This document shows positions 18,921 through 37,430 of a stretch of DNA of 37,430 nucleotides, in pieces. Location: positions 1-37,430 of the forward strand of contig NZ_JAIVFO010000027.1 in the NCBI RefSeq assembly GCF_029991245.1, read 5' to 3'. The notes beneath the pieces are model-generated. The model had not been told where the DNA came from, searched no databases, and worked only from the letters and a program-made list of their open reading frames with translations. Position 1 is the first letter of the stretch, and each line of letters starts with the position of its first letter. This DNA is from Xanthobacter autotrophicus (GTDB lineage: Bacteria > Pseudomonadota > Alphaproteobacteria > Rhizobiales > Xanthobacteraceae). The position numbers were made by a program, and so were the translations under genes.

Positions 18921-18940
18921 CTTGGCGCCCCCTTCCCCGC

Positions 18941-19951: not shown

Positions 19952-20059
19952 TTTGGGTTCTCCTTGAGCCGGCTTGAAGCCCGGCCTCTTGCGAAACTGC
20001 GTTGCGCACCCGCGGAAGAGCCCGCGGTGCGGCCGTGTGCGCCCGCCGTGCGCCGATGA

Positions 20060-22051: not shown

Positions 22052-22382
22052 GAATTCCGTTTCTCCCGCGCCGGGTTCCGGACGCGCCGCCCTGCCAGAG
22101 ACAACCTCGAGCTGTGGCAGACCTATCAGGGTCATCCGGCCATTGCTGGCCGCCTTGTACCAAGGCTCGCAAGGCTGTCAAACCTGCCCGGTCCACGAAC
22201 GTCAAGCCGGGGGGCCCGGCGAGCCCCGCGCCGCATCGTCGCGCCTGCAGCAAAGCTTCCGCATTGCAGCATTCGCAAATGCGGAAAAATTGGCCCCGCC
22301 GGCGGGCGCCCCCCGCGCGTGTTCATGTTGACAGGCCGGGAAAGTCTGGCGCGCCGCCGCCCGACTCGGCTACACTTTGCCA
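22052..22382. promoter_or_regulatory. Divergent promoter region tkt / DUF4164-zapA
   Basis: 331 bases without a gene. Contents: three evenly spaced half-sites GCCTTG-N3-CAAGGC-N3-CAAGGC at 22152-22175; a long dyad TTCCGCATT-N12-AATGCGGAA at 22257-22286; a TTGACA at 22328-22333; and a -10-like TACACT at 22371-22376, so close to the DUF4164 ATG that its transcript could be leaderless. The half-sites and dyad are plausible operators for metabolic control of tkt; the regulator is unknown. Confidence 0.5.
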
Positions 22383-22688
22383 ATGTATGCGCTGAAGCAT
22401 CGCCCGCCGCTGCAGGACGCCCCCATTGAGGCCGCGACCCGGCGCCTTCATGCGGCCCTCGACGCCCTGAACGACGCGCTGGATCGTCGTCGGGAGACCG
22501 ACCGCCATCAGGAGGCGCTGGCGGCCCAGCTTCACGCCATGGGCAACGACCGGGCGCGCCTCGCCGCGGAACTCGATCTCGCGAAGGCCGATGCCGGCCA
22601 GGTGGAGGAAATTGGCCGGGAAATCATCCGCCGCCTGGACGTGGCCATGGGCACGATCCGCGACGTGCTCGCGACCCACGGCGGCTGA
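22383..22688 (+). CDS. DUF4164 family protein (small coiled coil)
   Basis: A 101-residue, mostly helical, charged protein of the DUF4164 family, function unknown. Heptad-like patterns run over most of its length (AATRRLHAALDALNDALDRRRETDRHQEALAAQLHAM...), so a coiled coil is likely. It precedes zapA by five bases in this order in many Rhizobiales, suggesting a link to the divisome, but this is inference. No Shine-Dalgarno sequence is visible before the ATG; a TACACT box 7 to 12 bases upstream suggests a leaderless mRNA. Confidence 0.82.
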   Translation: MYALKHRPPLQDAPIEAATRRLHAALDALNDALDRRRETDRHQEALAAQLHAMGNDRARLAAELDLAKADAGQVEEIGREIIRRLDVAMGTIRDVLATHGG

Positions 22689-22693
22689 CGGGC

Positions 22694-23077
22694 ATGCCCC
22701 ACGTCTCCGTCACCATCGCCGGTCGCCAGTACAGGATGGCCTGCGACGAGGGGCAGGAAGATCACCTCATCCGCCTCGCCCATGACATCGACGGCCGCAT
22801 CTCCCAGCTGCGCACGGCCTTCGGCGAGATCGGCGACCAGCGCCTCGTGGTCATGGCCGCCATCACCATCGCCGACGAACTGGCGGAGTCGCGCCGGCGC
22901 GTTGCCGCTTTGGAAAGCGACATCGAGAGCCAGCGCGACGCCCGCGCCTCCGCCATCGCCCGCATCGAGGCGAGCGAGGAAGAGGTGGCCCGGACCATCG
23001 ATCAGGTGGCCGAGCGCATCGAGCAGCTGGTCTCCCAGCTCGCCCCCAAGGAGCGCGGCTCGGTGGGCATGGGCTGA
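22694..23077 (+). CDS. zapA: Cell division protein ZapA
   Basis: A 127-residue ZapA that bundles FtsZ filaments at the Z-ring. N-terminal VSVTIAGRQYRMACDEGQEDHLIRLAHDID is the family head domain; the C-terminal half is a long helix for tetramer formation (about residues 70-115). It is in an operon with the DUF4164 gene. The usual next element, the 6S RNA followed by 5-formyl-THF cyclo-ligase, is not here but at 35.4 kb on the other strand; instead the convergent ybgC ends 34 bases on. Confidence 0.9.
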   Translation: MPHVSVTIAGRQYRMACDEGQEDHLIRLAHDIDGRISQLRTAFGEIGDQRLVVMAAITIADELAESRRRVAALESDIESQRDARASAIARIEASEEEVARTIDQVAERIEQLVSQLAPKERGSVGMG

Positions 23078-23111
23078 AGGTCTGAACCGGCTGAAGGGGC
23101 GCCGCGCGCCC

Positions 23112-23621
23112 TCAGCGCTGGGTTTCGCCGATGGCCTCGGCCGCGCGTGCATCCTGCAGCGTCGCCTGCCGCAGCGCGTCGGGGATGCGCTTGGCCCGGC
23201 CTTCCGAGACGAAGGCCACGCGCACGGTGGCGGACACCAGCACCTCGCCGTCCCGCTTCACCTGCTGCAACAGGGTGATGGACGCACCGGCCACCTCCTT
23301 GGAGAGGGTCACCACCTCCAGCACGTCGTCGATGCGGGCGGGCTTGCGGAAATCGATCTGCATGGAGCGGACGACGAAGTGGAAGCCCGGCGCCTCGGCC
23401 GCCGCCTGCTCGAACAGCTCGCCCTGGAACACGCCGAGCAGCCGCATATAGTCGGAGCGGCCGCGCTCCATGAATCTCAGATAGTTGGCGTGGTAGACGA
23501 TGCCGGAGAAATCCGTGTCCTCGTAATAGACACGCACATGCAGCGCGTGGCCGCCGGGGATCAGCCGGCCGGCAAGGGTGAGGTGCGGATCGGACGGGGA
23601 GAGGTTTGGGCGCTCGACCAT
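23112..23621 (-). CDS. ybgC: Tol-Pal associated acyl-CoA thioesterase YbgC
   Basis: A 169-residue hot-dog-fold thioesterase. The catalytic Asp is in YYEDTDFSGIVYHANYLRFMERGRSDYMR (about residues 33-60), the diagnostic block of the 4HBT/YbgC family. It is thought to hydrolyse acyl-CoA or acyl-ACP in the context of phospholipid metabolism near the Tol-Pal system. GAGGG precedes the ATG at 23621. It normally heads the tolQRAB cluster; here the tol genes are 12 kb away on the opposite strand and zapA converges from the left. Confidence 0.92.
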   Translation of the reverse strand: MVERPNLSPSDPHLTLAGRLIPGGHALHVRVYYEDTDFSGIVYHANYLRFMERGRSDYMRLLGVFQGELFEQAAAEAPGFHFVVRSMQIDFRKPARIDDVLEVVTLSKEVAGASITLLQQVKRDGEVLVSATVRVAFVSEGRAKRIPDALRQATLQDARAAEAIGETQR

Positions 23622-23640
23622 GCCGCCCTCATAAACGAGA

Positions 23641-23668
23641 CCGCGCCCCTTGTGAACAAAGGGCGCGG
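23641..23668 (-). terminator. Hairpin after the DUF2852 gene
   Basis: A 12-bp stem with one C-A mismatch (CCGCGCCCCTT against AAAGGGCGCGG plus an inner G-C) and a short loop, between the DUF2852 stop and the ybgC start. The downstream T-run is poor, so termination is only likely. Confidence 0.45.
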
Positions 23669-23719
23669 CTCAAGATGGGCTAAGATGTTCCTGCGGCGGC
23701 AACGCGTCGCAGGAAAGGC

Positions 23720-24133
23720 TCAGTTGCCGGCTGGCGCGTCCGGGGCGGGCTCGGCGGGGCGGCTGCGGCGGTCGGCCATGAACTGGTCGAACTCCGACTT
23801 GTCCTTGGCCTGGCGCAGGCGCTCAAGGAAGTCGCGGAAGTCCTTCTGCTCGTCCTCAAGGCGCCGCAGCGTCTCCTGGCGGTACTCGTCGAAGGCGCGG
23901 TTGCCGCTGGACGGCATGGTCCGGCTCCAGCGCCCGAAGGCACCGCGCAGGGCGTCGCCGCCCTCTTCCTGCCAGCGGCCGAAGCCGCGCTTGGCACCAC
24001 ATCCCATCCGTCCGCTCCCGATTGTGAAGGCCAGGATCGCGAGGCCCAGCGGCCACCAGGCCATGAAGCCCAGCACCGTCAGCGCGATCCACGCCGGTTT
24101 GCCGTAACTGTCGAGCTTGTAAGCGAGCTCCAT
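23720..24133 (-). CDS. DUF2852 family membrane protein
   Basis: A 137-residue protein of the DUF2852 family, function unknown. One N-terminal membrane helix (PAWIALTVLGFMAWWPLGLAILAFTIG, about residues 13-37) is followed by a soluble part with a conserved GRWxxxxGxxAFDEYRQETLRRLEDEQKDFRDFLERLRQAKDKSEFDQFM-type helix, i.e. a charged coiled-coil tail. The ATG at 24133 was chosen over one ten codons upstream because the upstream start would lie over the operator. A TetR-type operator dyad sits at 24147-24167, so repression by the neighbouring TetR protein is likely. Confidence 0.82.
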   Translation of the reverse strand: MELAYKLDSYGKPAWIALTVLGFMAWWPLGLAILAFTIGSGRMGCGAKRGFGRWQEEGGDALRGAFGRWSRTMPSSGNRAFDEYRQETLRRLEDEQKDFRDFLERLRQAKDKSEFDQFMADRRSRPAEPAPDAPAGN

Positions 24134-24146
24134 AGCCGCGTTCCCG

Positions 24147-24167
24147 GTTAATGTTAATAACATTTAC
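24147..24167. promoter_or_regulatory. TetR operator candidate in front of the DUF2852 gene
   Basis: A dyad of the form GTtAATGT-N5-ACATTtAC, 14 bases upstream of the DUF2852 ATG. It matches a dyad in front of the TetR gene at 24861 in both arms and spacing, with the single mismatched pair at the same place. Confidence 0.62.
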
Positions 24168-24224
24168 ATAGATAGGCAAAGGCCCCCATTTTGTCAATGG
24201 CCCGGCCCTTGGCGGGCGCGGGAC

Positions 24225-24860
24225 TCAGGTGCCGGAGGGGGCGCCGAGACCTTTCAGATAGATCAGAAATGCGGCCTCAAGCAGCTCATCCGGGCCCATG
24301 GGCAATTTGCGCCGGGCGCTGTCGGCCCGGCCGAACAGGGACGCCACCCCATGGGCCAGCGACCAGGTATGGAGCGCCACCATCAGGGCCGGCGGGCGCA
24401 CCGGTCCGGGAATGTGAGAGACCAGAACTTCCGCCGCCTCGCGCAGCACGGCGAACGCGCGATTGCTGGCCTGCTGGAGACCCTCGTGGGCATCCGCCGG
24501 CAAGCCGGATTCGAACATGGCCACATAGTCCGCCGGCGCCCGCCGGGCGAAATCAAGATAGGCCCGCCCCACCCGCTCATAGGCGATGGCGGGCGAGGGC
24601 CGGCCGTTCTGCCACGCGGTGGTGAGCGCGTCGGCCAGCCGCTCGAAGCCGACGGCGGCCACCGCCGCCAGCAATTCGTCGCGATCGCGGAAATGGCGGT
24701 AGGGCGCCGCCGCGCTCACCCCGGCACGCCGGGCCGCCTCGGCGAAGGTGACGCCCGCCACCCCCTTCTCCCCGATCAGGTCGAGGGTCGCCTGCATCAG
24801 GGCCTCCCGCAGGTTGCCGTGATGGTAGGACCGCGTTTCTCCGTTCCGGGACCAGCTCAT
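24225..24860 (-). CDS. TetR/AcrR family transcriptional regulator (WHG-type C-terminus)
   Basis: A 211-residue TetR-family repressor. The helix-turn-helix is in VTFAEAARRAGVSAAAPYRHFRDRDELLAAVA (about residues 36-68), preceded by SYHHGNLREALMQATLDLIGEKG. The C-terminal ligand domain resembles the WHG type (PADYVAMFESGL..., HTWSLAHGVASLF). Its ligand is unknown. The dyad GTgAATGT-N5-ACATTgAC starts directly after the ATG on its upstream side, which suggests autorepression, and a second copy precedes the downstream DUF2852 gene. Confidence 0.92.
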   Translation of the reverse strand: MSWSRNGETRSYHHGNLREALMQATLDLIGEKGVAGVTFAEAARRAGVSAAAPYRHFRDRDELLAAVAAVGFERLADALTTAWQNGRPSPAIAYERVGRAYLDFARRAPADYVAMFESGLPADAHEGLQQASNRAFAVLREAAEVLVSHIPGPVRPPALMVALHTWSLAHGVASLFGRADSARRKLPMGPDELLEAAFLIYLKGLGAPSGT

Positions 24861-24881
24861 GTGAATGTGATGTACATTGAC
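24861..24881. promoter_or_regulatory. TetR operator candidate in front of the TetR gene
   Basis: A dyad of the form GTgAATGT-N5-ACATTgAC, directly abutting the TetR gene start. It is the partner of the site at 24147. Such a position would block initiation or translation start of the regulator's own mRNA. Confidence 0.62.
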
Positions 24882-24913
24882 AGTGGGGCCGCGTCGATGG
24901 GCATGACGACCGC

Positions 24914-25945
24914 CTACTCGCCCTCGTCGAACAGGGGCATGGGCTTGACCACCACCGGCTCCGGCAGGCCGAGATGGCGGAAGGCGGTGGCGGTGAGCAT
25001 CCGCCCGCGCGGCGTGCGCTGGATGAAGCCCTGCTGCACCAGGAACGGCTCCACGATTTCCTCGATGGCGTCGCGCGGCTCGGACAGCGCAGCGGCGAGC
25101 GTATCCACCCCCACCGGGCCACCACCGTAATAATCGGCGATGACGGTGAGATAGCGCCGGTCCATGGCGTCGAGGCCGGCGGCGTCCACCTCCAGCGCCA
25201 GCAGCGCCCGGTCGGCCACCTTGCGGTCGATGCGCTCGGCATCGGCCACCAAGGCAAAATCACGCACCCGGCGCAGCAGGCGGCCGGCGATGCGGGGCGT
25301 GCCGCGCGCGCGCCGGGCGATCTCGGTGGCCCCGTCGGGGGCGATGGCGATGCCCAGCACCCGCGCGCCGCGCACCACGATCTTCTCCAGTTCCTCCACC
25401 GTGTAGAACTGGAGCCGCACCGGAATGCCGAAGCGGTCGCGCAGCGGTGTGGTGAGCAGGCCGGAGCGCGTGGTGGCGCCAACCAGCGTGAACTTGGGCA
25501 GGGAAATCTTCACCGAGCGCGCCGCCGGCCCCTCGCCGATGACGAGGTCCAGCTCGTAATCCTCCATGGCGGGATAGAGGATCTCCTCCACCGCCGGCGC
25601 GAGACGGTGGATCTCGTCGATGAAAAGCACGTCGCGCTCTTCAAGATTGGTGAGGATGGCGGCCAGGTCCCCCGCCTTGGCGATCACCGGGCCGGAGGTG
25701 GAGCGGAAGCCCACCCCCATCTCCCGCGACATGATCTGGGCCAGCGTGGTCTTGCCGAGGCCGGGCGGCCCCACGAACAGCACGTGGTCCAGCGCCTCGC
25801 CGCGGGCGCGGGCCGCCTTGATGAACACTTCCAGATTGGCGCGCGCCTGCGCCTGGCCCACGAACTCCTTGAGGAGCTGGGGCCGCAGCGTCGAATCGGC
25901 GGCATCTTCGCCGTGCTTCTCGCCCGAGAGGAGGCGGGTGTTCAT
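24914..25945 (-). CDS. ruvB: Holliday junction branch migration ATPase RuvB
   Basis: A 343-residue AAA+ motor that, with RuvA, drives branch migration. Walker [10 protein letters not shown] (about residue 59), Walker B FIDEIHR, sensor 1 GATTRSG, the RDRFGI arginine finger region and the C-terminal winged-helix ([12 protein letters not shown] tail) are all present. The start [14 protein letters not shown] at 25945 is typical; a longer in-frame reading upstream overlaps the opposite-strand flavin reductase gene. ruvA is not adjacent: about 1.8 kb with two plus-strand genes lies between. Confidence 0.96.
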
Positions 25946-26227
25946 GGAGACGGGGGTGCTCCGCTTCGGACCAGCGACTCGCGCGACTTTAGAGTGCGCC
26001 GGCCGGGTACGGAAGGGGAACGCAGGGTCGCGCCCCACCCGGCAACATGCGGCGATGGACGACATGACACCCCGCAACGCCAGAGGGCCGGCATCGGTTC
26101 TATAATGCCGCGCGCCGGCGCGCCGAGCGGGTCTGTCGTCCAGCGTCGGCCGAAGAGCGCTTGGCCTGGTCGGCACCCCGCACCGGATCGAGGTTCGCCC
26201 CGGGAACAGCCACAGGAGCAGCCGGCC

Positions 26228-26758
26228 ATGAAGGACCTTCCCCTCGCCGAGGTCTACCAGCTCATCGAGCCGGGGCCGGTGGTGCTGCTGACCACCAGCC
26301 ATCGCGGCCACGCCAATGTCATGGCCATGTCGTGGCACATGATGGTGGAGTTCACTCCGCCCCTCATCGCCTGCATCGTCTCGCAGGGCGATTTCAGCTT
26401 CGCGGCCCTGCGCGCCACCAGGGAATGCGTCATCGCCATTCCCGCCGTGGACCTGGCCGAAAAGGTGGTGAAGGTGGGCAATTGCTCCGGCCGCGACGTG
26501 GACAAGTTCGCCACCATCGGGCTGACGCCCCGGCCCGCCGCCCGGGTGGCGGCGCCGCTGGTCAACGAGTGTTTCGCCAATCTCGAATGCCGGGTGGTGG
26601 AAACCCGCCTCGTCAACCGCTTCAACCTGTTCGTTCTGGAAGTGGTGAAGGCGTGGCGCGACCCGGCGCAGGCGGCGCCGCGCACCATCCATCACCATGG
26701 CTACGGGACCTTTGCGGTGGATGGGGACACGCTGAAGCTGCCGTCCCGGATGCCGTGA
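26228..26758 (+). CDS. Flavin reductase-like domain protein
   Basis: A 176-residue protein with the flavin reductase-like split-barrel fold. [44 protein letters not shown] is the typical FMN-binding start, followed by ECVIAIPA and the Cys-containing [19 protein letters not shown]. Family members bind FMN and reduce flavins or act on small aromatic substrates; the substrate here is unknown. AGGAG lies about 10 bases before the ATG at 26228. It sits between ruvA and ruvB on the opposite strand. Confidence 0.87.
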
Positions 26759-26870
26759 GGCGCGGCTCGGTTTTTCCGAGCAGCCTTCCGGGGGCTTCCT
26801 CACGTGAGAGAGAAGAGAAAATCCTCAAGCGTAACCTTGACCGCTCTTACAACTACAACCATTACGTGCT

Positions 26871-26887
26871 ATTGAATAAAATTCAAT
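26871..26887. promoter_or_regulatory. AT-rich perfect dyad upstream of the orphan membrane gene
   Basis: ATTGAA-TAAAA-TTCAAT, a perfect 6-bp inverted repeat with a five-base spacer, 43 bases before the start at 26930. A TTGACC lies upstream (about 26837). The local sequence is much richer in A/T than the rest of the window. An operator or promoter element is likely. Confidence 0.42.
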
Positions 26888-26929
26888 CGTCATGAAATGG
26901 TTCGCACTCGCGCGCTCGGGGAGGCAGGG

Positions 26930-27688
26930 ATGGCCGAGGACCCAAAACCCAAAGACGGACAGGAACCGGCCGCGGCAGAGGCAGCGGACGAGGCCTCGGG
27001 TGTCACCAGCCGAACCACGACGGTCGTGACGCAGGAAGAGCAGATGCTCAGAGACTTCCCCTCGAAAGCACCGGGGGTCTATCGATGGGCCGTGGCTGCC
27101 GTGGGCTTCATGGCAGCGGTATCGACGATCGCAGCCACTTTGAAGCCGGAAAACATCGTCACGATCACCTGCACGACCATTTTTATCATACTTCTCATAT
27201 TTCTGCTTTTCAGCTTCGAGAAGACCGAGATTGAAACCGCATCGCAATCCAAGTTGCTGAGCTGGTTTTCCGTTCTGCTTCTGATGGCCGCCAGCTCGGC
27301 GATCGTCACATCGGTCTTCTTTGCATGGCCGCTCGCCTTTTCAGCAACATCAAAGCTTGAAGCGGCGAAGATCAAGGCAAATGTCGACAGCTTCGATTTC
27401 CGCGACAGCATTCTGGTACGGGACAAGAACGACAGGGCCATGTGGCGGCAGATTTTCGGCTCGGAGACGAGCGATGTTTATAATTTCGTCGAGCGGAGGC
27501 ACAACAAGGATTATCTCCTGTTGTGGGATTCCAATCGGAAGATCCATGTCCGCATTCCGGCAGCGGGCGGCCTCGTGCAGTGGACTGAAGAAACCAATCT
27601 TGATGAATGCACGAAAAAGCCCTGCTGGTTCGACCTGCAGGGCGCCGACGTCAATCTGCGTCCAGCGGCATGGTTCTTTTCAAACTGA
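26930..27688 (+). CDS. Unrecognised membrane protein with an exposed C-terminal domain
   Basis: 252 residues; I do not recognise the family. Visible: a charged N-terminal tail rich in Glu, Ala and Thr (about 1-45); three hydrophobic helices (AVAAVGFMAAVSTIAATL, about 55-72; TITCTTIFIILLIFLLFSF, about 80-98; and WFSVLLLMAASSAIVTSVFFAWPLAF, about 113-138); and a soluble C-terminal domain of about 110 residues with two Cys (DECTKKPCWF) that could form a disulfide if it is periplasmic. GGGGAGG a few bases before ATG 26930 supports this start over 26897. Base composition is lower in GC than its neighbours, and it splits ruvA from ruvB, so recent acquisition is plausible. Confidence 0.7.
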   Translation: MAEDPKPKDGQEPAAAEAADEASGVTSRTTTVVTQEEQMLRDFPSKAPGVYRWAVAAVGFMAAVSTIAATLKPENIVTITCTTIFIILLIFLLFSFEKTEIETASQSKLLSWFSVLLLMAASSAIVTSVFFAWPLAFSATSKLEAAKIKANVDSFDFRDSILVRDKNDRAMWRQIFGSETSDVYNFVERRHNKDYLLLWDSNRKIHVRIPAAGGLVQWTEETNLDECTKKPCWFDLQGADVNLRPAAWFFSN

Positions 27689-27736
27689 GCTTCCAGGATC
27701 AAGCCCGGCGTTTCACAGGCATGATGGCGCTCCGCC

Positions 27737-28351
27737 CTACTTCGCCAGTTCCTTCAGACCCAGGCGGATCAGCGTCTCGGTCCTGGCCCCCTCCCCCGCG
27801 CCGCGCAGGGCGGCGGCGATGGCGGCATTGGCCTGCGGCGCGCCGTAGCCGAGATTGACGAGGGCGGAGACCGCATCCGCCGCCGCCCCTCCCTGCCCCG
27901 GTGCGATGACGCCGCCAAGCTGCGCCGCCAGCGGTTCGGAGGCGGAAAAGCCCGGCATCTTGTCCTTCAGCTCGGTGACGATGCGCGTCGCCACCCGCGG
28001 CCCCACCCCCGGCGCCCGCGCCACCGTGGCCTTGTCGCCCAGCGCGATGGCCTGCGTCAGCTCCGAGGCGGTCAGGGTGGACAGCACGGCCAGCGCCGTC
28101 TTGGTGCCGATGCCCTGGATGCCTTGCAGCAGGCGGAACCAGTCCCGCTCCGCCGCCGAGGTGAAGCCGAACAGGCGGATCTGGTCCTCGCGGACATAAG
28201 TCTCGATGAACAGCGCCGCCGCCTCGCCCGCCCGCGGCAGCGCCGAGAGCGTGCGCCCGGAGCAGTGCACGAGATAGCCCACGCCATGGACGTCGAGGAT
28301 CACATGGTCCTCCTCCAGCGTGTCCACGACGCCCTTGAGCTTTCCGATCAT
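27737..28351 (-). CDS. ruvA: Holliday junction DNA helicase subunit RuvA
   Basis: A 204-residue RuvA that binds the four-way junction and loads RuvB. The N-terminal OB fold starts [31 protein letters not shown]; helix-hairpin-helix motifs follow ([18 protein letters not shown] and [21 protein letters not shown], about 70-135). The C-terminal domain III ([25 protein letters not shown]) contacts RuvB. The ATG at 28351 was chosen over a GTG one codon upstream. It lies downstream of ruvC with a DUF1772 gene between. Confidence 0.95.
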
Positions 28352-28370
28352 CACAAGCCTTTCCGCCCGC

Positions 28371-28826
28371 TCACGCTGCCGCCGCCCACAGGAAGACCAG
28401 GGTAGCCAGCGCCCCGAGCCCGGTGCGCACCATGTGCAGGTGGCCCCAATTGGTGATGAGGCGCCGCGTCTCGGCGTCGGCCCTGTCCGTCGCCAGCAGG
28501 CGCCGGTTGGTGGGCATGATGCCGATGAGGGTATAGGGCCAGTTGGCCAGCATCAGCACCCCTCCGGCGAGCCAGTGCCAGTCCCCGTCGCGGCTGAAGG
28601 CGATGGCGCCCAGCACCGCGCCGGCCACGGCCAGGCTCGCCTGCATGGCAAAGCCCCGCTTGTAGGCCGGCTTCCATTGCCTGAGCGCCGCCCCGTCGTC
28701 GAGCGCGAGCCGCGCCGGCTGCTCCACGGCATTGATGTAAAAGGCGGCGCCGGTGAACAGCGCGGCCACCACCAGCGCCAAGTGTCCGATGATCATGCCC
28801 GCCCCCGCGGTGAGAGACACCGGCAT
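28371..28826 (-). CDS. DUF1772-like (anthrone oxygenase family) membrane protein
   Basis: A 151-residue membrane protein with four predicted helices ([76 protein letters not shown]). The pattern [16 protein letters not shown] and [15 protein letters not shown], with a WGHLHMVRT near the end, fits the DUF1772 family. Function is unknown; some family members are linked to anthrone oxidation. Start 28826 or 28796 are both possible. It lies between ruvC and ruvA on the same strand, 19 bases before ruvA. Confidence 0.68.
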
Positions 28827-28889
28827 TTTCGAGCGCCGTGGATTGCGGTTCGCGTGACGAAAATGCGGTGAACACAATGATCCTGGACT

Positions 28890-29399
28890 CTACAGCGCCG
28901 CGCGGGCGCGCGCAGCCGCGCCGCGATGGTGGGCGTGGGTGACGGCCACCGCCAGCGCGTCGGAGGCGTCCTCGGTCTGCGGCGTGGCCTTGGGCAGGAG
29001 GATGCCGATCATCATGCGCACCTGCGCCTTTTCGGCGCGGCCGGCGCCCACCACGCTCTTCTTCACCAGAAGCGCGGCGTATTCGGCCACCGGAAGACCC
29101 ATCTGGGCCGGCGCCAGCAGCACCACGCCGCGGGCCTGCCCCAGCTTCAGGGTGGACGACGGGTTCATGTTGACGAACGTCTCTTCCACCGCCGCCTCGT
29201 GTGGGGAAAAGCCCTCGATGACGCCCAGAAGCTCGCGGTGCAGGGTGGCGAGCCGCTCGCCCATGGGCGCCTGATCCGGCGGCAGGATGGTGCCGCAGGC
29301 GACAAAGGCGAGGCGCGAGCCGGTGACGTCGATCACCCCCCAGCCGGTCCGCCTCAGGCCCGGGTCGAGGCCGAGGATGCGAATCGTGTTCAGGTCCAT
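28890..29399 (-). CDS. ruvC: Crossover junction endodeoxyribonuclease RuvC
   Basis: A 169-residue RNase-H-fold resolvase that cuts Holliday junctions. Catalytic acidic residues are in ILGLDPGLRRTGWG (Asp12), AAVEETFVNMNPSS (about residue 70) and near the C-terminus EDASDALAVAVTHAH. The start MDLNTIRILGLDPG at 29399 is typical; ten further upstream codons are Pro/Arg-rich. It is the first of the ruv genes on this strand. Confidence 0.95.
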   Translation of the reverse strand: MDLNTIRILGLDPGLRRTGWGVIDVTGSRLAFVACGTILPPDQAPMGERLATLHRELLGVIEGFSPHEAAVEETFVNMNPSSTLKLGQARGVVLLAPAQMGLPVAEYAALLVKKSVVGAGRAEKAQVRMMIGILLPKATPQTEDASDALAVAVTHAHHRGAAARARAAL

Positions 29400-29490
29400 G
29401 GGCGCACCGTGCGGGAGGCGCGGCGGCAAGGAAAGGGCAACGCGAACGGCACCACGAGGGGATGGACGCAGGAGCAGACGAAGCGGCGGC

Positions 29491-31902
29491 TCACTTCACC
29501 GCCGCCGTGGTGCTGGCAAGGCGGGTCGCGCTCTTGGGGCGGACCGAAAGGGAAGCGATCGGGGCGCCCGTGCTCTCCTCCTGCCATTGCGGAAGGATCT
29601 CGACGATGTTCGCGGCCGCGTTCTGCGGCGCGGGAACGAAGGTGGCCACCGCCTGCTGCGCCCTGGTGAGGGTGGCGCCATCGGCCTCGCGGGCGAGGAT
29701 GTCGCGCTTGCGGCCGCTGTCGGCATCGCCCTGGGCGGCGGCAAGGCTCAGCCACTTGAAGGCTTCCCCCGCATCGGCCGCGACCCCGAGCCCCCGGGCA
29801 TAGACCACGCCCAGATTGTACTGGCTGTCGCGGAAGCCCAGCTCGGCAGCGGCGCGGAACCAGCGCACCGCGCCTTCCCAGTCCGGCGTCTGGCCGTTGC
29901 CGGCGCACAGCATCATGGCGAGGGCGTGCATGGCCCGCACGTTGCCCTGCGCTGCCGCCCATTCATAGAAGCGCCGGGCCTCTCCCAGATCGCGGCCGGC
30001 GGATTCGTAGAGCGCGCCGAGGCGATGGGCGGCCGGGGCGGAGCCCCGCTGCATGGCGAACGCCAGCCACTTCACCGCCGCGTCGGGATCGGCGTCCACG
30101 CCCCGGCCCTCCGCATAGCGGCCGGCGACAAGGAAGGCGGCGGCCGGATCGCCGGCCCGCGCCGCGGTCTGGAGCGCGGTCGGGCCGATGGCCGCCGGAA
30201 GGTCGCCCGCCGTCACCCCGGCGACGGCCGGGGCAGACAGCCGGCGCAGAGCCTGGGTGACGCCGGAGAGCAGATCCGGCCCGTTGCGCAAGGCAAGGCC
30301 TGCGGCGGTGCCGGCGAAGACGGTGGCGGAGCCGGCCAGGAGCGCGACCATGGCCACCTGCCGCCTGCGGTCGAACAGCCCGGCGACGAAACCCTTTGGG
30401 GCGCGCTTGTCGCGTGGCCGGTCCCGGCGCGCGCGGTGATCCACGCGAGGACGCGAATCAGCGGGGTCGGACCGGGCCGGGCCGGTCCGGTCGGCGCGGT
30501 GGGGGCTCCGGGGCCAGGGCGAGCCGGCAGCGGCATCCGCCGCGTCGGCATGGGTTGGCACGGCGTCGAAGATGGGGTCTTCCGCCGCCTCGGGCGCGGC
30601 AGCCGCCCGTTCGGCCGCCCGTTCAGCCGTCCGGGGCGCCGGGCGGGGGGCGAAGGTGCCCTCCCCGTCCCGGTCCAGGGCGACGGAGATATCGCGCAAT
30701 TCATATTCCAGTTCGGCGGCGAGCATGTCGCCGGCGCGGCGCTCGATCTCGTCCTGCCGCGCCTCGAGGGCGGCAAGGCCCCGCTTCAGCCCCACCACGG
30801 CGGCGCCGTCCGGGTCCTCGGAGACCTTGGCCGCCACCGCGGCCACCGCCTCGGCGGTGGCCACATGGGTCGTCTCGCGCACCTGGCGCATCTCGGCGAC
30901 CATGTGCTGGAGCTGGATCTCGATGTCATCCAGCCGGTCGAGGCGCGCATGGGTGTCCCGGAACTGCGCGCTCAGCTCGGCGAGGGTGCGCTCCACCGCA
31001 TCGGCGAGGGGAGCGATGGCGGCCTTGCCGGCCTCCTCGGCGGCGGCAATGCGCTCGGACAAGGCGGACAGACGCTGCGTCACCTCGGCGCCGATGGTCG
31101 GCGACAGGCTGCTGACCTGGCCGGAAATGGCACTCGACATGGCATCGAGACGACGGTGGACGCCCTCAAGCGCGCCCAGCAGCGAGCCCTGCAGGGCCTC
31201 CGCGGCGTCCGAATCACCGGCACGGGCGCGGGCCTCCACCTCGATCACGCGGCTGAGCAGGGCCTCGGCCTTGCGCTCGAAGGCGCCGGTGGCCTCGGCG
31301 ACGCGCCGGGCCGTCTCCTCGCCGACCCCGGCGACCGCCTCGGCGCAGGCCGTCAGGCGCTGGGTCAGGGCGTGAAGCGCGGCGGTGTCGTCGTGACGCT
31401 CGGCGGCGCGGAGCACCAGATGGTGGATCTCCTCCATCTGCCCGGTCAGCCGGGCGACCTCCACCGGGTCCACCGCGCGGGCGGCCATGAGGTCGATGCG
31501 GCGCGACAGGGCGTCGAGCCCGTCCTGAAGGGCGCGCACATGGGCCGGCTCACGCAAGGCGGCGAGCCCGGCGCGGATGGCGGCAAGTTCCTCGGCGAAG
31601 GCGTGGTCCGCATCCGCGCGCACCGCACCTGCCGCGCGGATGTCGTCCACGCGCCGGCACAGGAGGGTGATGGCCTTGTCCATCTCCTGCACCGCGCGCT
31701 TGGGCGCGGCGTTGGCGAGGCGATCGCGCAGGGCGCTCACCTCGCCACGCAGGGATTCGATGGTCGAGGCCTGGATGTCGAACACGTCCCAGGCCGGGAC
31801 ATCAGGCATCTCGCTGCGCGTGTCCGCCCACAGGGGGGCGGATCCTGCCTGAGCAGGTCCTGCCGCAGCACGCATCCGGGCCGTGCGCTCCGTCCGCTCC
31901 AT
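29491..31902 (-). CDS. PodJ-like polar scaffold: coiled coil, one membrane helix, Sel1 repeats
   Basis: An 803-residue protein. Residues about 45-410 are long charged helices with many heptad stretches (coiled coil), followed by an acidic/Pro and then Arg-rich basic linker (about 420-510), a single membrane helix VAMVALLAGSATVFAGTAAGLAL (about 514-537), and a C-terminal Sel1-repeat domain (about 580-730: AVKWLAFAMQRGSAPAAHRLGALYESAG, ARRFYEWAAAQGNVRAMHALAMML, AVRWFRAAAELGFRDSQYNLGVVYARG, AFKWLSLAAAQGD). This order matches PodJ-type localization factors of Rhizobiales and Caulobacter, which place proteins at the pole. GGGGAGG before ATG 31902 supports the start. Assignment is by architecture. 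Confidence 0.72.
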   Translation of the reverse strand: MERTERTARMRAAAGPAQAGSAPLWADTRSEMPDVPAWDVFDIQASTIESLRGEVSALRDRLANAAPKRAVQEMDKAITLLCRRVDDIRAAGAVRADADHAFAEELAAIRAGLAALREPAHVRALQDGLDALSRRIDLMAARAVDPVEVARLTGQMEEIHHLVLRAAERHDDTAALHALTQRLTACAEAVAGVGEETARRVAEATGAFERKAEALLSRVIEVEARARAGDSDAAEALQGSLLGALEGVHRRLDAMSSAISGQVSSLSPTIGAEVTQRLSALSERIAAAEEAGKAAIAPLADAVERTLAELSAQFRDTHARLDRLDDIEIQLQHMVAEMRQVRETTHVATAEAVAAVAAKVSEDPDGAAVVGLKRGLAALEARQDEIERRAGDMLAAELEYELRDISVALDRDGEGTFAPRPAPRTAERAAERAAAAPEAAEDPIFDAVPTHADAADAAAGSPWPRSPHRADRTGPARSDPADSRPRVDHRARRDRPRDKRAPKGFVAGLFDRRRQVAMVALLAGSATVFAGTAAGLALRNGPDLLSGVTQALRRLSAPAVAGVTAGDLPAAIGPTALQTAARAGDPAAAFLVAGRYAEGRGVDADPDAAVKWLAFAMQRGSAPAAHRLGALYESAGRDLGEARRFYEWAAAQGNVRAMHALAMMLCAGNGQTPDWEGAVRWFRAAAELGFRDSQYNLGVVYARGLGVAADAGEAFKWLSLAAAQGDADSGRKRDILAREADGATLTRAQQAVATFVPAPQNAAANIVEILPQWQEESTGAPIASLSVRPKSATRLASTTAAVK

Positions 31903-32320
31903 TCGGGCCTCCCCGGGGCACGGGTTTAGAGGTTTCTTATTACCGTGCCCGTTCGCGGTGATTCACTGAACAGAGGGTTTCAATTCTTGGTAAATCCGCG
32001 GTTAACGTCGCGTCGATTTGCTCAAATCCGCCAGCCGATGACGAACCCGCCGCACGCGAACCGGCCGCAGATCGGTGCCAAAGGTGCCGCAGCGTCATCG
32101 GACGGGCCGTTCGAGCGGGTCTTTAAGTCATTGAGAAGTTTATGTTGTAACTGTTACTTTCCCCAACGGTAGCCCGCAAAGCCTCCCCTCGGAGCCGGCT
32201 GGAGGTTAAACCTCGTTTGCGTTGCGGCATGTCGCGACGACGCAATTCGGAACGCACATTGATCCAAATTCCCGCGCCGAGCGCCCTGCGGCGGCCGGGG
32301 GTGCGAAGGGGACCAGACGT
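31903..32320. promoter_or_regulatory. 418-base divergent region between PodJ-like and MerR genes
   Basis: No gene is seen. Contents: a dyad GGGCACGG-N19-CCGTGCCC at 31916-31950 just upstream of the PodJ-like start; a short dyad GTAAC-T-GTTAC at 32147-32157 in an AT-rich patch with a TTGAGA upstream (about 32131), which may be the MerR promoter/operator, since MerR proteins bind dyads inside the -35/-10 spacer. Its distance to the MerR ATG (about 160 bases) is long. Confidence 0.4.
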
Positions 32321-32749
32321 ATGGATGCCAATACCTTCGAGCAGGGGGTCGCGACCCCGGCGTTTCACACCGGCCCGGCGGTCGCGGACGGCGCTCGCGA
32401 GGGTGCTCTCTTCAGCATCGGCGACCTCGCCCGCGAGTTCGGCATCACCCTGCGGGCGCTGCGCTTCTATGAGGACAAGGGCCTGCTCTCGCCGCGTCGC
32501 GACGGCATGACCCGCCTGTATTCGGAAGCCGACCGCCGCCGCCTGACGGTCATCCTGAAGGGCAAGCACCTCGGCTTCACCCTGGCCGAGATCCGTGCCC
32601 TGGTCGCCGCCCATGACGGCGAGGAAGCCAGCCTGACGCTGACCCGCGACCGCTGCCTGTCCCAGCTCGCCCAGCTCGAGCGCCAGCGCACCGAGATCGA
32701 CGCCGCCATCGCCGAGCTGAAAAACATGGCGACGTCCCTCGCCGCCTGA
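32321..32749 (+). CDS. MerR family transcriptional regulator
   Basis: A 142-residue MerR-family regulator. The winged helix-turn-helix is in FSIGDLAREFGITLRALRFYEDKGLLSPRRDGMTRLYSEADRRRLTVILKGKHLGFTLAEIRALV (about residues 30-95), followed by a dimerisation helix (LTLTRDRCLSQLAQLERQRTEIDAAIAELKNMA). Only one Cys is present, so it is not a metal sensor of the MerR/CueR type. AAGGGGA precedes ATG 32321; a longer in-frame reading from 32222 is not family-like. It converges with yebC across a shared terminator. Confidence 0.92.
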   Translation: MDANTFEQGVATPAFHTGPAVADGAREGALFSIGDLAREFGITLRALRFYEDKGLLSPRRDGMTRLYSEADRRRLTVILKGKHLGFTLAEIRALVAAHDGEEASLTLTRDRCLSQLAQLERQRTEIDAAIAELKNMATSLAA

Positions 32750-32799
32750 TTGCAATCCGGGCAGGTCGGAATGGCCTGACCGGTTCGACCCGACCAAAC

Positions 32800-32831
32800 A
32801 AAAGGCACGGACTGGTCGGTCCGTGCCTTTT
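32800..32831. terminator. Bidirectional terminator between merR-type gene and yebC
   Basis: A 12-bp perfect stem (AAAAGGCACGGA against TCCGTGCCTTTT) with an eight-base loop and T-runs on both strands, in the convergent gap of the MerR gene and yebC. Confidence 0.9.
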
Positions 32832-32893
32832 TGATTCTGGATCGATGCGACAGCGCCCCGACAGAGCCGCCACCCGCGCGGGTGGCGTCGCCC

Positions 32894-33643
32894 TCACTCC
32901 GCGTTCAATTTGGCCAGCAGGGCTTCGGACAGCTCGAAATTGGCGGTGACGTTCTGCACGTCGTCGTTGTCCTCGAGATTCTCCACGAGGCGGAGCAGCT
33001 TCTCGCCGGTCTCATCGTCCACCGCGACGGTATTTTGCGGCCGCCAGATCAGCGCTGCCTTCTTCGGCTCGCCGAACCTGGCTTCCAGCGCCCGCTGCAC
33101 TTCCGCCAGACTTTCCGCCGCGCACACCACCTCGTGGCCATGCTCGGAGGAGGTCACGTCGTCGGCGCCGGCTTCGATGGCGGCTTCCATCATGGCATCG
33201 GCGTCGGCCTTCTCGGGGGCGAACTCGATGGCGCCCATCCGGTCGAACATGAAGGACACCGAGCCGGTCTCGGCGAGGTTGCCGCCGGACTTGGTGAAGA
33301 AGGACCGCACTTCCGAGGCGGTGCGGTTGCGGTTGTCGGTCAGCGCCTCGACGATGACCGCGACGCCGCCGGGGCCGTAGCCCTCATAGCGGATCTCGTC
33401 GTAATTCTCGCCATCGGCGCCCGCCGCCTTCTTGATGGCGCGCTCGATATTGTCCTTGGGCATGTTCTCGGCGCGGGCCGCGAGGATGGCGGCGCGCAGG
33501 CGCGCGTTCATGTTGGGATCGGGCAGGCCCATCTTGGCCGAGACGGTGATTTCGCGTGCCAGCTTGGAGAACAGCTTGGAGCGCATCGCATCCTGCCGCC
33601 CCTTGCGGTGCATGATGTTCTTGAATTGCGAATGCCCGGCCAT
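32894..33643 (-). CDS. yebC: YebC/PmpR family transcriptional or translational regulator
   Basis: A 249-residue YebC family protein. [32 protein letters not shown] is the typical start, followed by [13 protein letters not shown] and [28 protein letters not shown]. Members act as DNA-binding regulators or, in more recent work, as factors that relieve ribosome stalling at proline stretches. AAGGAA precedes the ATG at 33643. It is a usual neighbour of ruvC; here a PodJ-like gene and the MerR gene intervene. Confidence 0.95.
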
Positions 33644-33809
33644 GCCGCCACCATTCCTTGAATGCCGATCCCGCGCCCCGCCGCTGCAGCGCTGCCCGGA
33701 CCGATCTGTTGACTGGAGCCGGCCTTATAGGTCCGTGCCGGCCAAAAGCGCAAGAAAGCGGGTGCAGCATGATGCCATCCAAAGGCGCCGGCTCCCGCCT
33801 CCCCTTCCG

Positions 33810-34631
33810 TCAGGCCCAGAAGGCCGGCCGCGCCTCCTCAAGCCCGGCGCCGAGGCGCACGGCGGCGACGCGCACGGCAAGGCCGGTGCGGTCGTCGGTC
33901 TCCACCGCCACGCCGGAAAGCGTTCCCGGCCCCGTCGCCGGCTCGAAGCGGCCGGAGGCGAGCTTGCGGGTGAAGCGGCGCAGGGGCTCTTCCTTGTCCA
34001 TGCCGATGACGCCGTCATAGGCGCCGCACATGCCGGCATCGGTCATGTAGGCGGTGCCGCCGGACAGGATGCGGTAATCGGCTGTGGGCACATGGGTGTG
34101 GGTGCCCACCACCAGGGAGGCGCGGCCGTCGCAATGATGGCCGATGGCCTGCTTTTCGCTGGTGGTCTCGGCGTGCACGTCCACCACCACCGCGTCCACC
34201 ATTTCGCCCAGTGCCGCGCCGTCCAGCGCCCGGTCGAGGGCGGCGAAGGGATCGTCCAGCGGGTCCATGAACACCCGGCCCATGACGTTCATCACCAGCA
34301 CCCGGGCGCCGTTCCTGGCTTCCACCAGGGCGGCGCCACGTCCCGGCGTGCCGGGGGGATAATTCATGGGCCGCACCAAAGCCGGCGCCCGCTCGATGAA
34401 GACGAGGGCCTCGCGCTGGTCGAAGGCATGGTTGCCGAGGGTGATGGCATCGGCGCCGGCGGCGATGAGCTCGCCGTAGATGGCTTCGGTAATGCCGAAG
34501 CCGCCGGCCGCGTTCTCCCCGTTCACCACCACGAGGTCGAGCTTCCAGTCGCTGACGAGGTCCGGCAGGCGGGAGACGACGCATTCCCGGCCGGGACGGC
34601 CGACCACATCACCAAGGAACAGGATACGCAT
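33810..34631 (-). CDS. YmdB-like metallophosphoesterase (TIGR00282 family)
   Basis: A 273-residue calcineurin-fold phosphoesterase. Metal-ligand motifs seen: MRILFLGDVVGRPGRE (Asp8), VVNGENAAGGFG, ITLGNHAFDQRE, VVDVHAETTSEKQA and VGTHTHVPTADYRIL. Characterised relatives hydrolyse cyclic nucleotides (2',3'- or 3',5'-cAMP) and affect motility and biofilm choice; the substrate here is not known. It follows the 5-formyl-THF cyclo-ligase gene by 52 bases on the same strand and precedes yebC. Confidence 0.9.
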   Translation of the reverse strand: MRILFLGDVVGRPGRECVVSRLPDLVSDWKLDLVVVNGENAAGGFGITEAIYGELIAAGADAITLGNHAFDQREALVFIERAPALVRPMNYPPGTPGRGAALVEARNGARVLVMNVMGRVFMDPLDDPFAALDRALDGAALGEMVDAVVVDVHAETTSEKQAIGHHCDGRASLVVGTHTHVPTADYRILSGGTAYMTDAGMCGAYDGVIGMDKEEPLRRFTRKLASGRFEPATGPGTLSGVAVETDDRTGLAVRVAAVRLGAGLEEARPAFWA

Positions 34632-34683
34632 TCAGAAGGGTCCAATGAGCAGCGGAGGCCTATGGCGGGGGGCCGGGGCCGGA

Positions 34684-35271
34684 TCAGGCGCGGGGGCCGA
34701 CGGCCCAAGCTTCGATATCCGTTACCATCATGTCCACCGGCTCGTCATGGGTCTCGACGGGCACCGCGTCCACTTCCTGGCACGCAAAGGCAAAGCCGAT
34801 GGCCCGCACCGGCCGCCGCGCCCGCAGCAAAGCGAGGGTGCGATCGTAGAAGCCGGCGCCATAGCCGATGCGGAAGCCGCGCCGGTCGAAGGCGGCCAGC
34901 GGCACCAGCAGCAAGTCGGGAACGATGTCCGGCGCATCCGGCCCCGGCTCGGGAATGCGAAACGCGCCCGAGGGCACGAGCGGGGCGTCCTTGTCCCAGC
35001 GGCGGAACAGGAGAGGACGGTCGCGGGCAACGATGACGGGAAGGGCGAGGACCGCGCCGGCATCGCGCAGGGCGTTCGCCAGCGGCGCGGTGTCGATCTC
35101 GTCGCGGAACGGCGCGAACAGGGCGATGGCTTGCCCCTCCACCGCGCCTGCGGCGGCCAGGGCATGGCTTGCGGCTGCGCGAGAGGCAGCGGCGCGGCCC
35201 GTCTCGCCCATGGCCGCGCGACGTCCGAGCGCGAGGGCGCGCAGGCGTTTCTTTTCGGCGGCGATGTCCAT
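34684..35271 (-). CDS. 5-formyltetrahydrofolate cyclo-ligase
   Basis: A 195-residue folate enzyme that converts 5-formyl-THF to 5,10-methenyl-THF with ATP. The N-terminal KKRLRALALGRRAA, central LFAPFRDEIDT and the C-terminal RIGYGAGFYDRTLA (phosphate/folate-binding) with FACQEVDAVPVETHDEPVDMMVTD are all family signatures. It lies about 60 bases downstream of the 6S RNA candidate, an association known from E. coli (ygfA) to alphaproteobacteria, so co-transcription with 6S is likely. Confidence 0.94.
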   Translation of the reverse strand: MDIAAEKKRLRALALGRRAAMGETGRAAASRAAASHALAAAGAVEGQAIALFAPFRDEIDTAPLANALRDAGAVLALPVIVARDRPLLFRRWDKDAPLVPSGAFRIPEPGPDAPDIVPDLLLVPLAAFDRRGFRIGYGAGFYDRTLALLRARRPVRAIGFAFACQEVDAVPVETHDEPVDMMVTDIEAWAVGPRA

Positions 35272-35329
35272 GAGGGGCGAAGTCGGCTTGTCCAGAAAAC
35301 GTGCGGAGCCACAGAAGCCGTCGGAGGTC

Positions 35330-35480
35330 GATCCCGGGAACCTACAACGTAGGTGGGCGCCGTGTGTCCAAGTCCAGGGACAAGGTCAGGGACAGCTCCC
35401 TTAAGGATCGATAAGGCCCCGGGGAAATGTCTCCTAACGAGCCCCGCAGCCCCGCCCGACCAATGTAGGCACCCGGCCGC
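35330..35480 (-). ncRNA. ssrS: 6S RNA candidate
   Basis: 6S RNA binds the housekeeping RNA polymerase holoenzyme and tunes transcription in stationary phase. On the minus strand a closing stem is visible: CCGGG then CCTACA at the 5' end (35476 downwards) pairs with TGTAGG then CCCGG at the 3' end (down to 35334), enclosing about 143 bases. Inside are further stem segments and an unpaired purine-rich middle (around GGAGACATTTCCCC and CTTAAGGGAGCT), as in the open-bubble fold. The position directly upstream of the cyclo-ligase gene is the conserved site. The exact ends are uncertain by about five to ten bases. Confidence 0.75.
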
Positions 35481-35862
35481 CCGAGCGCCAGCCCCAACAG
35501 CGTGATCGGCCCCAAGAGAGGCTTTGAGAGACGCTTTGAGGGGCGTGGAAACCCTGCATCCGGCAGAAACGCGACGCAATCCGCCACGTGCGGCCCGGTG
35601 CTAACCCGCCATTAAGCCTGTTCGTGCACAGCTTCCTGCGTGCCGCGAAGCTTTCGCGCCGCAGCACGAACCGGTCGGCCCGTCAAAGTTTGGACAGACT
35701 CGCTCGCTCAAAGAGCCAGCGAACTTCGAACGGGTTTCCGGCCGAGACGTTTCCGAGCGGCAGCGCGCCGCCCCCGGAAGCCGGAGGCTTTGGGCCGGGC
35801 ACATGCCCGGCGCCCGAGCGCAGAAGCACCTCTTCCGCACGGGAGGGGCAGCGGAGCCGAGA
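35481..35862. promoter_or_regulatory. Divergent region 6S RNA / tolQ, with leader hairpin
   Basis: 382 bases without a gene. Contents: two direct copies of GCTTTGAG 12 bases apart (35521 and 35533) near the 6S promoter side, and a very stable hairpin GCCGGGCA-CA-TGCCCGGC at 35794-35811, about 50 bases before the tolQ ATG. No clear -35/-10 pair could be fixed for either side. Confidence 0.4.
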
Positions 35863-36684
35863 ATGACTGATTTGACACGCCGTTCCGGCATCGTGTCCCA
35901 CCTGCGCCCCGCGCCGCTGGCCGCAGCGGGCCTCGCCGTGGCCGTAGCCCTGGCGCTGCTGCCGACGGCGGGCGTCGCGCAGGACCTCACCCAGGCCCCG
36001 CTGGCGGCGCCCTCGGCCGACATTTCATTCCTCGGCCTGTTCCTGCAGGCCCATTTCGTCGTGAAGCTGGTGATGATCGGCCTCATCACCGCGTCCATCT
36101 GGGTGTGGGCCATCATCATCGACAAGTCGATGCTGTTCTCCCGCAACAAGCGCGAGATGGACCGCTTCGAGCAGGTGTTCTGGTCCGGCCAGAGCCTGGA
36201 AGACCTCTACCGCACCCTGGCCGGGCGCTCCAACCAGGGCATGGCCGCCATCTTCGTTGCCGCCATGCGGGAGTGGAAGCGCACCTACGAGGGCAGCTCC
36301 CGCTCGTTCGCCGGCCTCAACCAGCGCCTGGACAAGGTGATGAACGTGACCATCGCCCGCGAGGTGGAGCGGCTCGAATCGCGCCTGCTGGTGCTGGCCA
36401 CCGTGGGCTCGGCGGGGCCGTTCATCGGCCTGTTCGGCACGGTGTGGGGCATCATGACCTCGTTCCAGTCCATCGCCGCCTCCAAGAATACCTCGCTGGC
36501 GGTGGTGGCGCCGGGCATCGCAGAAGCCCTGTTCGCGACCGCGATGGGCCTCATTGCGGCCATCCCCGCGACGATTTTCTACAACAAGTTCATTTCCCAG
36601 ACTGGGCGTCAGGCCCAGCGGCTGGAGGGATTTGCGGACGAGTTCTCCGCGATCCTCTCGCGCCAGATCGACGAGCGGGGCTGA
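35863..36684 (+). CDS. tolQ: TolQ, proton-channel subunit of the Tol-Pal system
   Basis: A 273-residue inner-membrane protein of the MotA/TolQ/ExbB family. Three expected helices are present (KLVMIGLITASIWVWAIIIDK; LLVLATVGSAGPFIGLFGTVWGIM; VAPGIAEALFATAMGLIAAIPATIFYNKF). The N-terminus carries an extra 50-residue part with a signal-like segment (PLAAAGLAVAVALALLPTAGVAQ), more common in ExbB-type proteins, but the rest (SRNKREMDRFEQVFWSGQSLEDLY) and the following TolR argue for TolQ. The ATG at 35863 is preceded by CGGAGCCGAG. ybgC, its usual upstream neighbour, is not adjacent. Confidence 0.92.
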   Translation: MTDLTRRSGIVSHLRPAPLAAAGLAVAVALALLPTAGVAQDLTQAPLAAPSADISFLGLFLQAHFVVKLVMIGLITASIWVWAIIIDKSMLFSRNKREMDRFEQVFWSGQSLEDLYRTLAGRSNQGMAAIFVAAMREWKRTYEGSSRSFAGLNQRLDKVMNVTIAREVERLESRLLVLATVGSAGPFIGLFGTVWGIMTSFQSIAASKNTSLAVVAPGIAEALFATAMGLIAAIPATIFYNKFISQTGRQAQRLEGFADEFSAILSRQIDERG

Positions 36685-36687
36685 TCC

Positions 36688-37146
36688 ATGGGCATGGCGG
36701 GAGGCGGAGCGGGAGGATGGCAGAGCCGGCGTTCGCGCCGTCGCGCGCCGCCCGTGATGGCCGAGATCAACGTGACGCCCATGGTGGATGTCATGCTGGT
36801 GCTGCTCATCATCTTCATGGTGGCGGCGCCGCTTTTGACCGTGGGCGTGCCCATCGACCTGCCGCAGACGCAGGCGAGCGCGGTGAACCAGGACAACAAG
36901 GAACCCATCACCCTCTCGGTGAAGGAAAACGGGCAGATCTTCCTCGGCGACAGCGAGATCAAGTACGAGGATCTGGTCTCGAAGTTGCAAGCGGTGACCC
37001 AGGCGCGCGGCGGCTTTGACGAGCGCGTCTTCGTGCGCGGCGACAGGAAGGCCAATTACGGAGCGATCATGCGGGTCATGGGGCGCCTGTCCGGCGCGGG
37101 CTTCAAGAAGGTGGCCCTGGTCACCGAAGTGGAACAGGGAGGCTGA
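36688..37146 (+). CDS. tolR: TolR, membrane subunit of the Tol-Pal system
   Basis: A 152-residue ExbD/TolR protein. A short basic cytoplasmic tail (SRRSRRRAPP) and the family block AEINVTPMVDVMLVLLIIFMVAAPLL give one membrane helix (about residues 32-52) with the conserved Asp for proton flow. The periplasmic part has VGVPIDLPQTQA, VKENGQIFLGD and a C-terminal VFVRGDRKANYGAIMRVMGRL domain. It starts three bases after the tolQ stop, so it is in the same operon. Confidence 0.95.
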   Translation: MGMAGGGAGGWQSRRSRRRAPPVMAEINVTPMVDVMLVLLIIFMVAAPLLTVGVPIDLPQTQASAVNQDNKEPITLSVKENGQIFLGDSEIKYEDLVSKLQAVTQARGGFDERVFVRGDRKANYGAIMRVMGRLSGAGFKKVALVTEVEQGG

Positions 37147-37153
37147 CGGGCCG

Positions 37154-37430
37154 ATGCGCGCGGGGATTGCGGCATCGACGCTCCTGCATGCGGGCGTCCT
37201 CGTTCTGACCCTGGTGTCCTTCACCGGGGCGAAGCCGTTTGAGCCCATGACGGAATCGCTGCCGGTGGATGTGGTCTCCATCTCCGAATACACCAAGCTC
37301 ACCAAGGGCGCCCGCAACGCGCCCAAGCTGGACAAGCCCAAGCAGATTGCCGAGAAGGTGGGCGATCCCACCCCCGTCGAGGACGCCAAGCTGAAGGCGA
37401 GCGAGAAGGCGCCGGTGGAAGCCACCGCCC
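37154..37430 (+). CDS. tolA: TolA, cut by the window end
   Basis: The first 92 codons of a TolA-like protein, beginning seven bases after tolR. An N-terminal membrane helix (AGIAASTLLHAGVLVLTLVSF) is followed by the PVDVVSISEYTKLTKG block and a Lys/Pro/Ala/Glu-rich stretch, the start of the long periplasmic helical domain. TolA bridges the inner-membrane TolQR to Pal and TolB. The gene continues past the right edge; tolB is presumably beyond it. Confidence 0.88.
   Translation, partial: MRAGIAASTLLHAGVLVLTLVSFTGAKPFEPMTESLPVDVVSISEYTKLTKGARNAPKLDKPKQIAEKVGDPTPVEDAKLKASEKAPVEATA

Follow-up and report, generated by a model that had tools for sequence, protein, structure and literature searches.

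In Escherichia coli the 6S RNA gene (ssrS) lies in a zapA-ssrS-ygfA neighbourhood, in which 6S RNA is followed by the gene for 5-formyl-tetrahydrofolate cyclo-ligase (5-FCL; ygfA). Here we analyse a stretch of 37,430 nucleotides from Xanthobacter autotrophicus (contig NZ_JAIVFO010000027.1, positions 1 to 37,430; hereafter the window), in which a block running from the 6S RNA gene to ybgC lies reversed between zapA and tolQ. The five-species clade with this arrangement keeps the 6S-cyclo-ligase pair of E. coli but loses the zapA-6S pair. Rhodobacter sphaeroides, Caulobacter crescentus and other alphaproteobacteria transcribe tolQRAB and pal-cpoB as separate units (PMC9275681). The Xanthobacter locus resembles that cluster in that tolQRAB stays together with its own upstream region and pal is a separate unit; it differs in that the window's tolQRAB is parted from ybgC by an inner inversion and from pal-ybgF by an outer one. 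Lineage-specific rearrangements reported in Shigella (PMC8072062) are alike in that a core block is reversed in place and fixed in a clade with nearly unchanged content. They are linked there to abundant insertion sequences, whereas in Xanthobacter no repeat or mobile element is seen at the ends and the inversions are nested. No report of the present inversion turned up among the matches listed for open-licence PMC articles.

The inverted block and its distribution

The block is very probably a real chromosomal inversion, fixed and specific to one lineage, and forms the inner member of a nested pair. Comparison across the genus and the family shows that its two junctions, zapA/ybgC and 6S/tolQ, are non-ancestral and that reversing the 12.4 kb between them gives the order of the relatives, as had been proposed from the letters of the window alone (the sequence-only reading). 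The proposed size holds (12.38-12.52 kb), but the proposed span of 23078-35862 does not: the left cut falls in the short zapA/ybgC gap and the right cut well before 35862, in the intervals given in Table 1. When the region is used as a query, the genomes numbered G002, G005, G008 and G012 are collinear with the window, and G001, G003, G004 and G009 match in pieces, with the order and strand of the reversed block. Gene maps of the fetched loci agree with these matches on block orientation and show G021 to be canonical too. Between the two junctions the carriers thus have the same genes in the opposite order and on the opposite strand, and relatives show the ancestral state; polarity is set by the canonical outgroups G034 and G101 and by the family survey described below.

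Both new junctions are found in 5 of 14 Xanthobacter species, namely the window's own genome (G000), X. oligotrophicus 29k (G002), X. autotrophicus DSM 432 (G005), G008 and G012, the last with a main contig of 5,308,934 bases, and in none of the nine others. The five carriers form one clade (ultrafast bootstrap support (UFBoot) 100) in a tree built from the concatenated sequences of 12 proteins encoded in the locus itself, so that one old event explains all of them. Relatives with both the zapA-6S and the ybgC-tolQ adjacency, which the sequence-only reading needed in order to stand, make up seven of the 14 species: both old junctions lie on one contig in G001, G003, G004, G009 and G021, and on separate contigs in G006 and G010. 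The remaining two, G011 and G007, keep ybgC-tolQ but have a zapA/6S junction that is disrupted differently. The cluster of G007 is dispersed over several contigs and places (loci L013, L014, L015 and L016); there the 6S gene adjoins an apparent divergent murJ start, read by eye, and zapA adjoins another gene.

We surveyed 100 family genomes, counting only 6S and ybgC matches above the family cut-off and leaving out weaker matches and one partial second 6S match (G092). In 78 of the 94 genomes with both genes, zapA is followed on its own strand by the 6S gene at no more than 1.5 kb (six without zapA or 6S were left out). All four markers share a contig in 61 genomes (39 others were left out), and 48 of these have them in the order zapA-6S-ybgC-tolQ, co-directional and within 150 kb. 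A zapA-ybgC distance of at most 1.5 kb and a tolQ-6S distance of at most 3 kb occur among the 100 only in G000 and G005, the sole clade members sampled, where the pairs are convergent and divergent, respectively; pairs split over contigs fall outside that count. Four other orders of the markers within 150 kb were seen in G062, G071, G078 and G108, and seven further genomes have them spread over more than 150 kb.

A RuvA scan of named genomes yielded 80 loci, the nearest being those of X. autotrophicus DSM 432, X. oligotrophicus 29k and Xanthobacter sp. YC-JY1; 38 of the 80 showed neither zapA nor tolQ. Among loci with both genes, 24 of 29 have zapA ahead of ymdB on the same strand at no more than 5 kb, and 20 of 22 have ybgC ahead of tolQ. 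The exceptions are the carriers L036 and L037, L078, and the wider-spaced L084 and L103. The sequence-only reading had named Sinorhizobium as an example of the ancestral order: yebC-ruvC-ruvA-ruvB-ybgC is indeed co-directional in all eight Ensifer/Sinorhizobium loci of this set, as are the cyclo-ligase gene, ymdB and tolQ wherever they were detected, but no zapA turned up in any of the eight. In L078 (Rhizobium sp. RU20A) and L082 (Metarhizobium album) zapA and 6S are still paired but stand opposite to ruvCAB, which is another rearrangement of this cluster.

An older outer inversion

A search for FtsH placed ftsH on the minus strand of the window at 9195-11114, with tilS, ybgF and pal to its right, so that the pal-ybgF-tilS-ftsH group is separated from tolQRAB within the window. 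To describe the wider order we use modules S (Sel1 to tkt-zapA), B (6S to ybgC), T (tolQRAB), P (pal to ftsH) and C (murJ-trpS-ubiG), with a prime for reversal. The canonical order A-S-B-T-P is present in G004 and G021 within the genus and in G034 and G101 from outside genera; it reads z262, then Sel1-thiE-fba-pgk-gap-tkt-zapA, then 6S to ybgC, tolQRAB and pal-ybgF-tilS-ftsH, followed in G101 by module C. In G001 and G003 the entire Sel1-to-tolB stretch lies inverted between z262 and pal (A-[T'B'S']-P-C). In G012 the same stretch is reversed except for its middle part, 6S to ybgC, which has the ancestral direction (A-[T'-B-S']-P-C). The window matches the order of G012 as far as it reaches; by their FtsH coordinates, G002, G005 and G008 also fit G012, and G009 fits G001.

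Two nested inversions, outer then inner, are the shortest account that we found for these orders. Comparison of the genomes shows that about 24 kb (Sel1 to zapA, 6S to ybgC, and tolQRAB) was inverted between z262 and pal in a Xanthobacter ancestor, parting pal-ybgF-tilS-ftsH from tolB. Later, in the common ancestor of the five carriers (the X. autotrophicus group), the middle 12.4 kb, from 6S RNA to ybgC, was inverted again, giving the convergent zapA/ybgC and the divergent 6S/tolQ junctions. After this second step module B is again ancestral in orientation relative to the outer neighbours, with S and T still flipped and swapped around it. The block first described is therefore the inner of two inversions, and the tolB-pal linkage is broken as well.

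The arrangement of G011 is a separate event that uses the same zapA/6S cut as the window's clade. Here the stretch from 6S to ftsH is reversed as a whole behind zapA, ftsH is convergent to zapA (L022/L023), and the gene beyond 6S encodes a GMC-type oxidoreductase (named by eye) rather than murJ. Because the outer inversion is common to the G001 group and the five species, it argues that G011 branched before their split, against its grouping in the protein tree (see below).

Breakpoints, mechanism and rival explanations

The left cut of the inner inversion lies within the 34 bases separating zapA and ybgC. As for the right cut, TACATT stands at -12 of the 6S gene in 14 of 14 Xanthobacter species and CTGGC at -36 in 13 of 14 (the exception is G008), whatever the arrangement. 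A CTAA-N7-TTAA box is kept upstream of tolQ in 14 of 14, or in 15 of 18 genomes once four from outside the genus are included. This box may resemble a CtrA half-site pair. As the promoter-like pair and the box have each been kept with their own gene, the right cut is placed between them.

The window's genome is a fragmented draft of 495 contigs, which might suggest an assembly or scaffolding error. Such an error is scarcely credible, since the same two junctions recur in the assemblies of G002, G005, G008 and G012, the last on a contig of 5.31 Mb, and the window reads unbroken through both. Both block orientations exist in the genus, as in a reversible element undergoing phase variation through a site-specific recombinase or inverted repeats. 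A switch of this kind is nevertheless very improbable. The longest exact inverted match between junctions is 9-12 nt in nine genomes and never exceeds the maximum of 20 shuffles (11-14), in line with the absence of inverted repeats noted at the outset, and among the best 25 of 133 imperfect inverted pairs in 22300-36000 none has one arm per junction. No site-specific recombinase was found among the window genes with an above-cut-off family match (an orphan open reading frame (ORF) without a Pfam match could not be judged); RuvA gave a sub-cut-off match to the IS110 model. Orientation moreover follows phylogeny, the inverted state being confined to one clade. With neither repeats nor a site-specific recombinase found and with orientation following the tree, nothing points to a switch.

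Introduction of the block already flipped by horizontal transfer, for which we found no supporting evidence, is likewise highly unlikely: apart from the Sel1 protein (79-90%), its proteins are 84-99% identical to their counterparts in the other four carriers, the gene complement of the carriers is the same except for the orphan ORF, and zapA and the 6S gene are each single-copy in the window's genome. Recombination between repeats or insertion sequences, since decayed, is an unlikely but conceivable origin, because carriers differ by branch lengths of 0.02-0.09 substitutions per site, over which such repeats could have disappeared; yet no matching pair was seen in the genomes tested, before or after inversion, and inverted matches at the outer and G011-type breakpoints are not above those of shuffled sequence (5 tests, 4 genomes). 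Rather than recombination between repeats, the lineage-specific inversion would be explained by illegitimate end joining of two double-strand breaks. Ku genes are present in 8 of the 14 Xanthobacter genomes, including the window's own, in two copies each. Their presence makes end joining possible without demonstrating it; homology at the junctions is nowhere above chance, but the junctions have diverged.

Tolerance of the rearrangements may be explained by the position of the cuts. They would fall between transcription units, leaving the 6S gene with its promoter and tolQ with its upstream region. Three of the four cuts are at plausible unit boundaries (zapA/6S promoter, ybgC/tolQ box and tolB/pal), and the fourth, z262/Sel1, is intergenic. 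For tolB/pal, the separate tolQRAB and pal-cpoB units in the available part of PMC9275681 imply that this cut, too, lies between units in those organisms. A recurrent breakpoint between zapA and the 6S promoter, used apparently independently in the window's clade, G011 and G007, with the second inversion perhaps favoured for restoring the ancestral orientation of ruvCAB-6S, is doubtful. As a hotspot this site was set aside: the cut is common to two well-defined inversions and one scrambled genome, numbers too small for a test. As a clock for the flip, strand skew at fourfold sites was also tried and rejected; it is -0.13 to -0.16 in the block of the clade and -0.22 to -0.28 in G001, G003 and G009, but close to zero in G004 and G021, which are canonical, and so tells nothing clear. 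The orientation of the whole locus to the replication fork apparently differs between G001/G003 and G012, but this was judged by hand from dnaA with the origin not located, and was therefore set aside.

Several observations weigh against nested inversions by end joining between units. In the 12-protein tree G011, which lacks the outer inversion, sits beside the five-species clade with support 84, which requires a reversal or a repeated outer inversion; its placement is left undecided by sequence, as three topologies all pass the approximately unbiased (AU) test (p 0.24-0.62). Wide flanks were read for nine genomes, and for the window in part, with the outer arrangement of G006, G007 and G010 outside this coverage. 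The genes to the right of ftsH vary among canonical genomes, murJ being present there in G101 but not in the stretches read of G004, G021 and G034. No Ku match was obtained in G002, G004, G006, G008, G010 and G021, of which G002 and G008 carry the inversion. For the promoter-like pair and the box, conservation is the sole evidence, and it weakens outside Xanthobacter, where CTGGC occurs in two and the box in one of four genomes. Finally, the breakpoints are not readable to the base because the intergenic DNA has diverged.

Gene map of the window and meaning of the inversion

Profile matches in the window bear out the gene content and strands first described. The genes then named for the block are all present, but the list had omitted DUF2852, TetR, Anthrone_oxy-type and Sel1 genes on the minus strand and, on the plus strand, flavin reductase and MerR genes and one orphan ORF. 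The minus-strand order of module B is ybgC, DUF2852, TetR, ruvB, ruvA, Anthrone_oxy-type ORF, ruvC, Sel1 protein, yebC, ymdB-like, 5-FCL and 6S RNA (Table 1).

Table 1. Features of the window, with both breakpoint intervals of the inner inversion and the left one of the outer inversion.
Feature	Position	Strand	Remarks
Module P	9192-14158	-	ftsH 9192-11114, tilS 11230-12354, ybgF 12361-13479, pal 13541-14158
Outer inversion, left breakpoint interval	14159-14418		pal versus Sel1 ORF; canonical genomes have tolB/pal and z262/Sel1 instead
Module S, minus part	14419-22135	-	Sel1 ORF, thiE-like, fba, pgk, gap, tkt
tkt	20060-22135	-	left flank
Module S, plus part	22377-23077	+	DUF4164 22377-22688, zapA 22694-23077
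Inner inversion, left breakpoint interval	23078-23111		zapA/ybgC, convergent
Module B (inverted block)	23112-35491	-	ybgC to 6S RNA, including 6S promoter-like pair
ybgC	23112-23621	-	
ruvB	24914-25945	-	
Flavin reductase	26228-26758	+	inside module B
Orphan ORF	26930-27688	+	inside module B
ruvA	27737-28354	-	
ruvC	28890-29399	-	
MerR regulator	32321-32749	+	inside module B
yebC	32894-33643	-	
ymdB-like	33810-34631	-	
5-FCL	34684-35271	-	
6S RNA	35302-35455	-	Rfam RF00013, 84.2 bits
6S promoter-like pair	35462-35491	-	TACATT at -12 (35462-35467), CTGGC at -36 (35487-35491); conservation only
Inner inversion, right breakpoint interval	35492-35600		6S/tolQ, divergent
CTAA-N7-TTAA box upstream of tolQ	35601-35615	+	sole window match on either strand; conservation only
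Module T, truncated by window end	35863-37430	+	tolQ 35863-36684, tolR 36688-37146, presumed tolA start

The orphan ORF encodes 252 amino acids with no Pfam match and no relative in 148 other genomes of the family. It sits in 26763-27735, about 0.97 kb at 55% G+C against 69% for the window; this gap between the flavin reductase gene and ruvA measures 11-27 bases in the eight relatives measured. The presumed tolA is an open frame from about 37154 on the plus strand, named by its position without a family match. Contig C46 of G008 (L017) stops at nearly the same point of the presumed tolA as the window, perhaps because a repetitive coding region breaks short-read assemblies.

Ordinary in kind, the inversion is informative in its location. 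It amounts to a clean natural experiment in which 6S RNA has been parted from zapA, and tolQ from ybgC, with no visible gene broken. Named strains with and without the inversion exist, and can show whether linkages kept by most relatives matter or merely persist. The nested order is in addition a genomic character for subdividing Xanthobacter.

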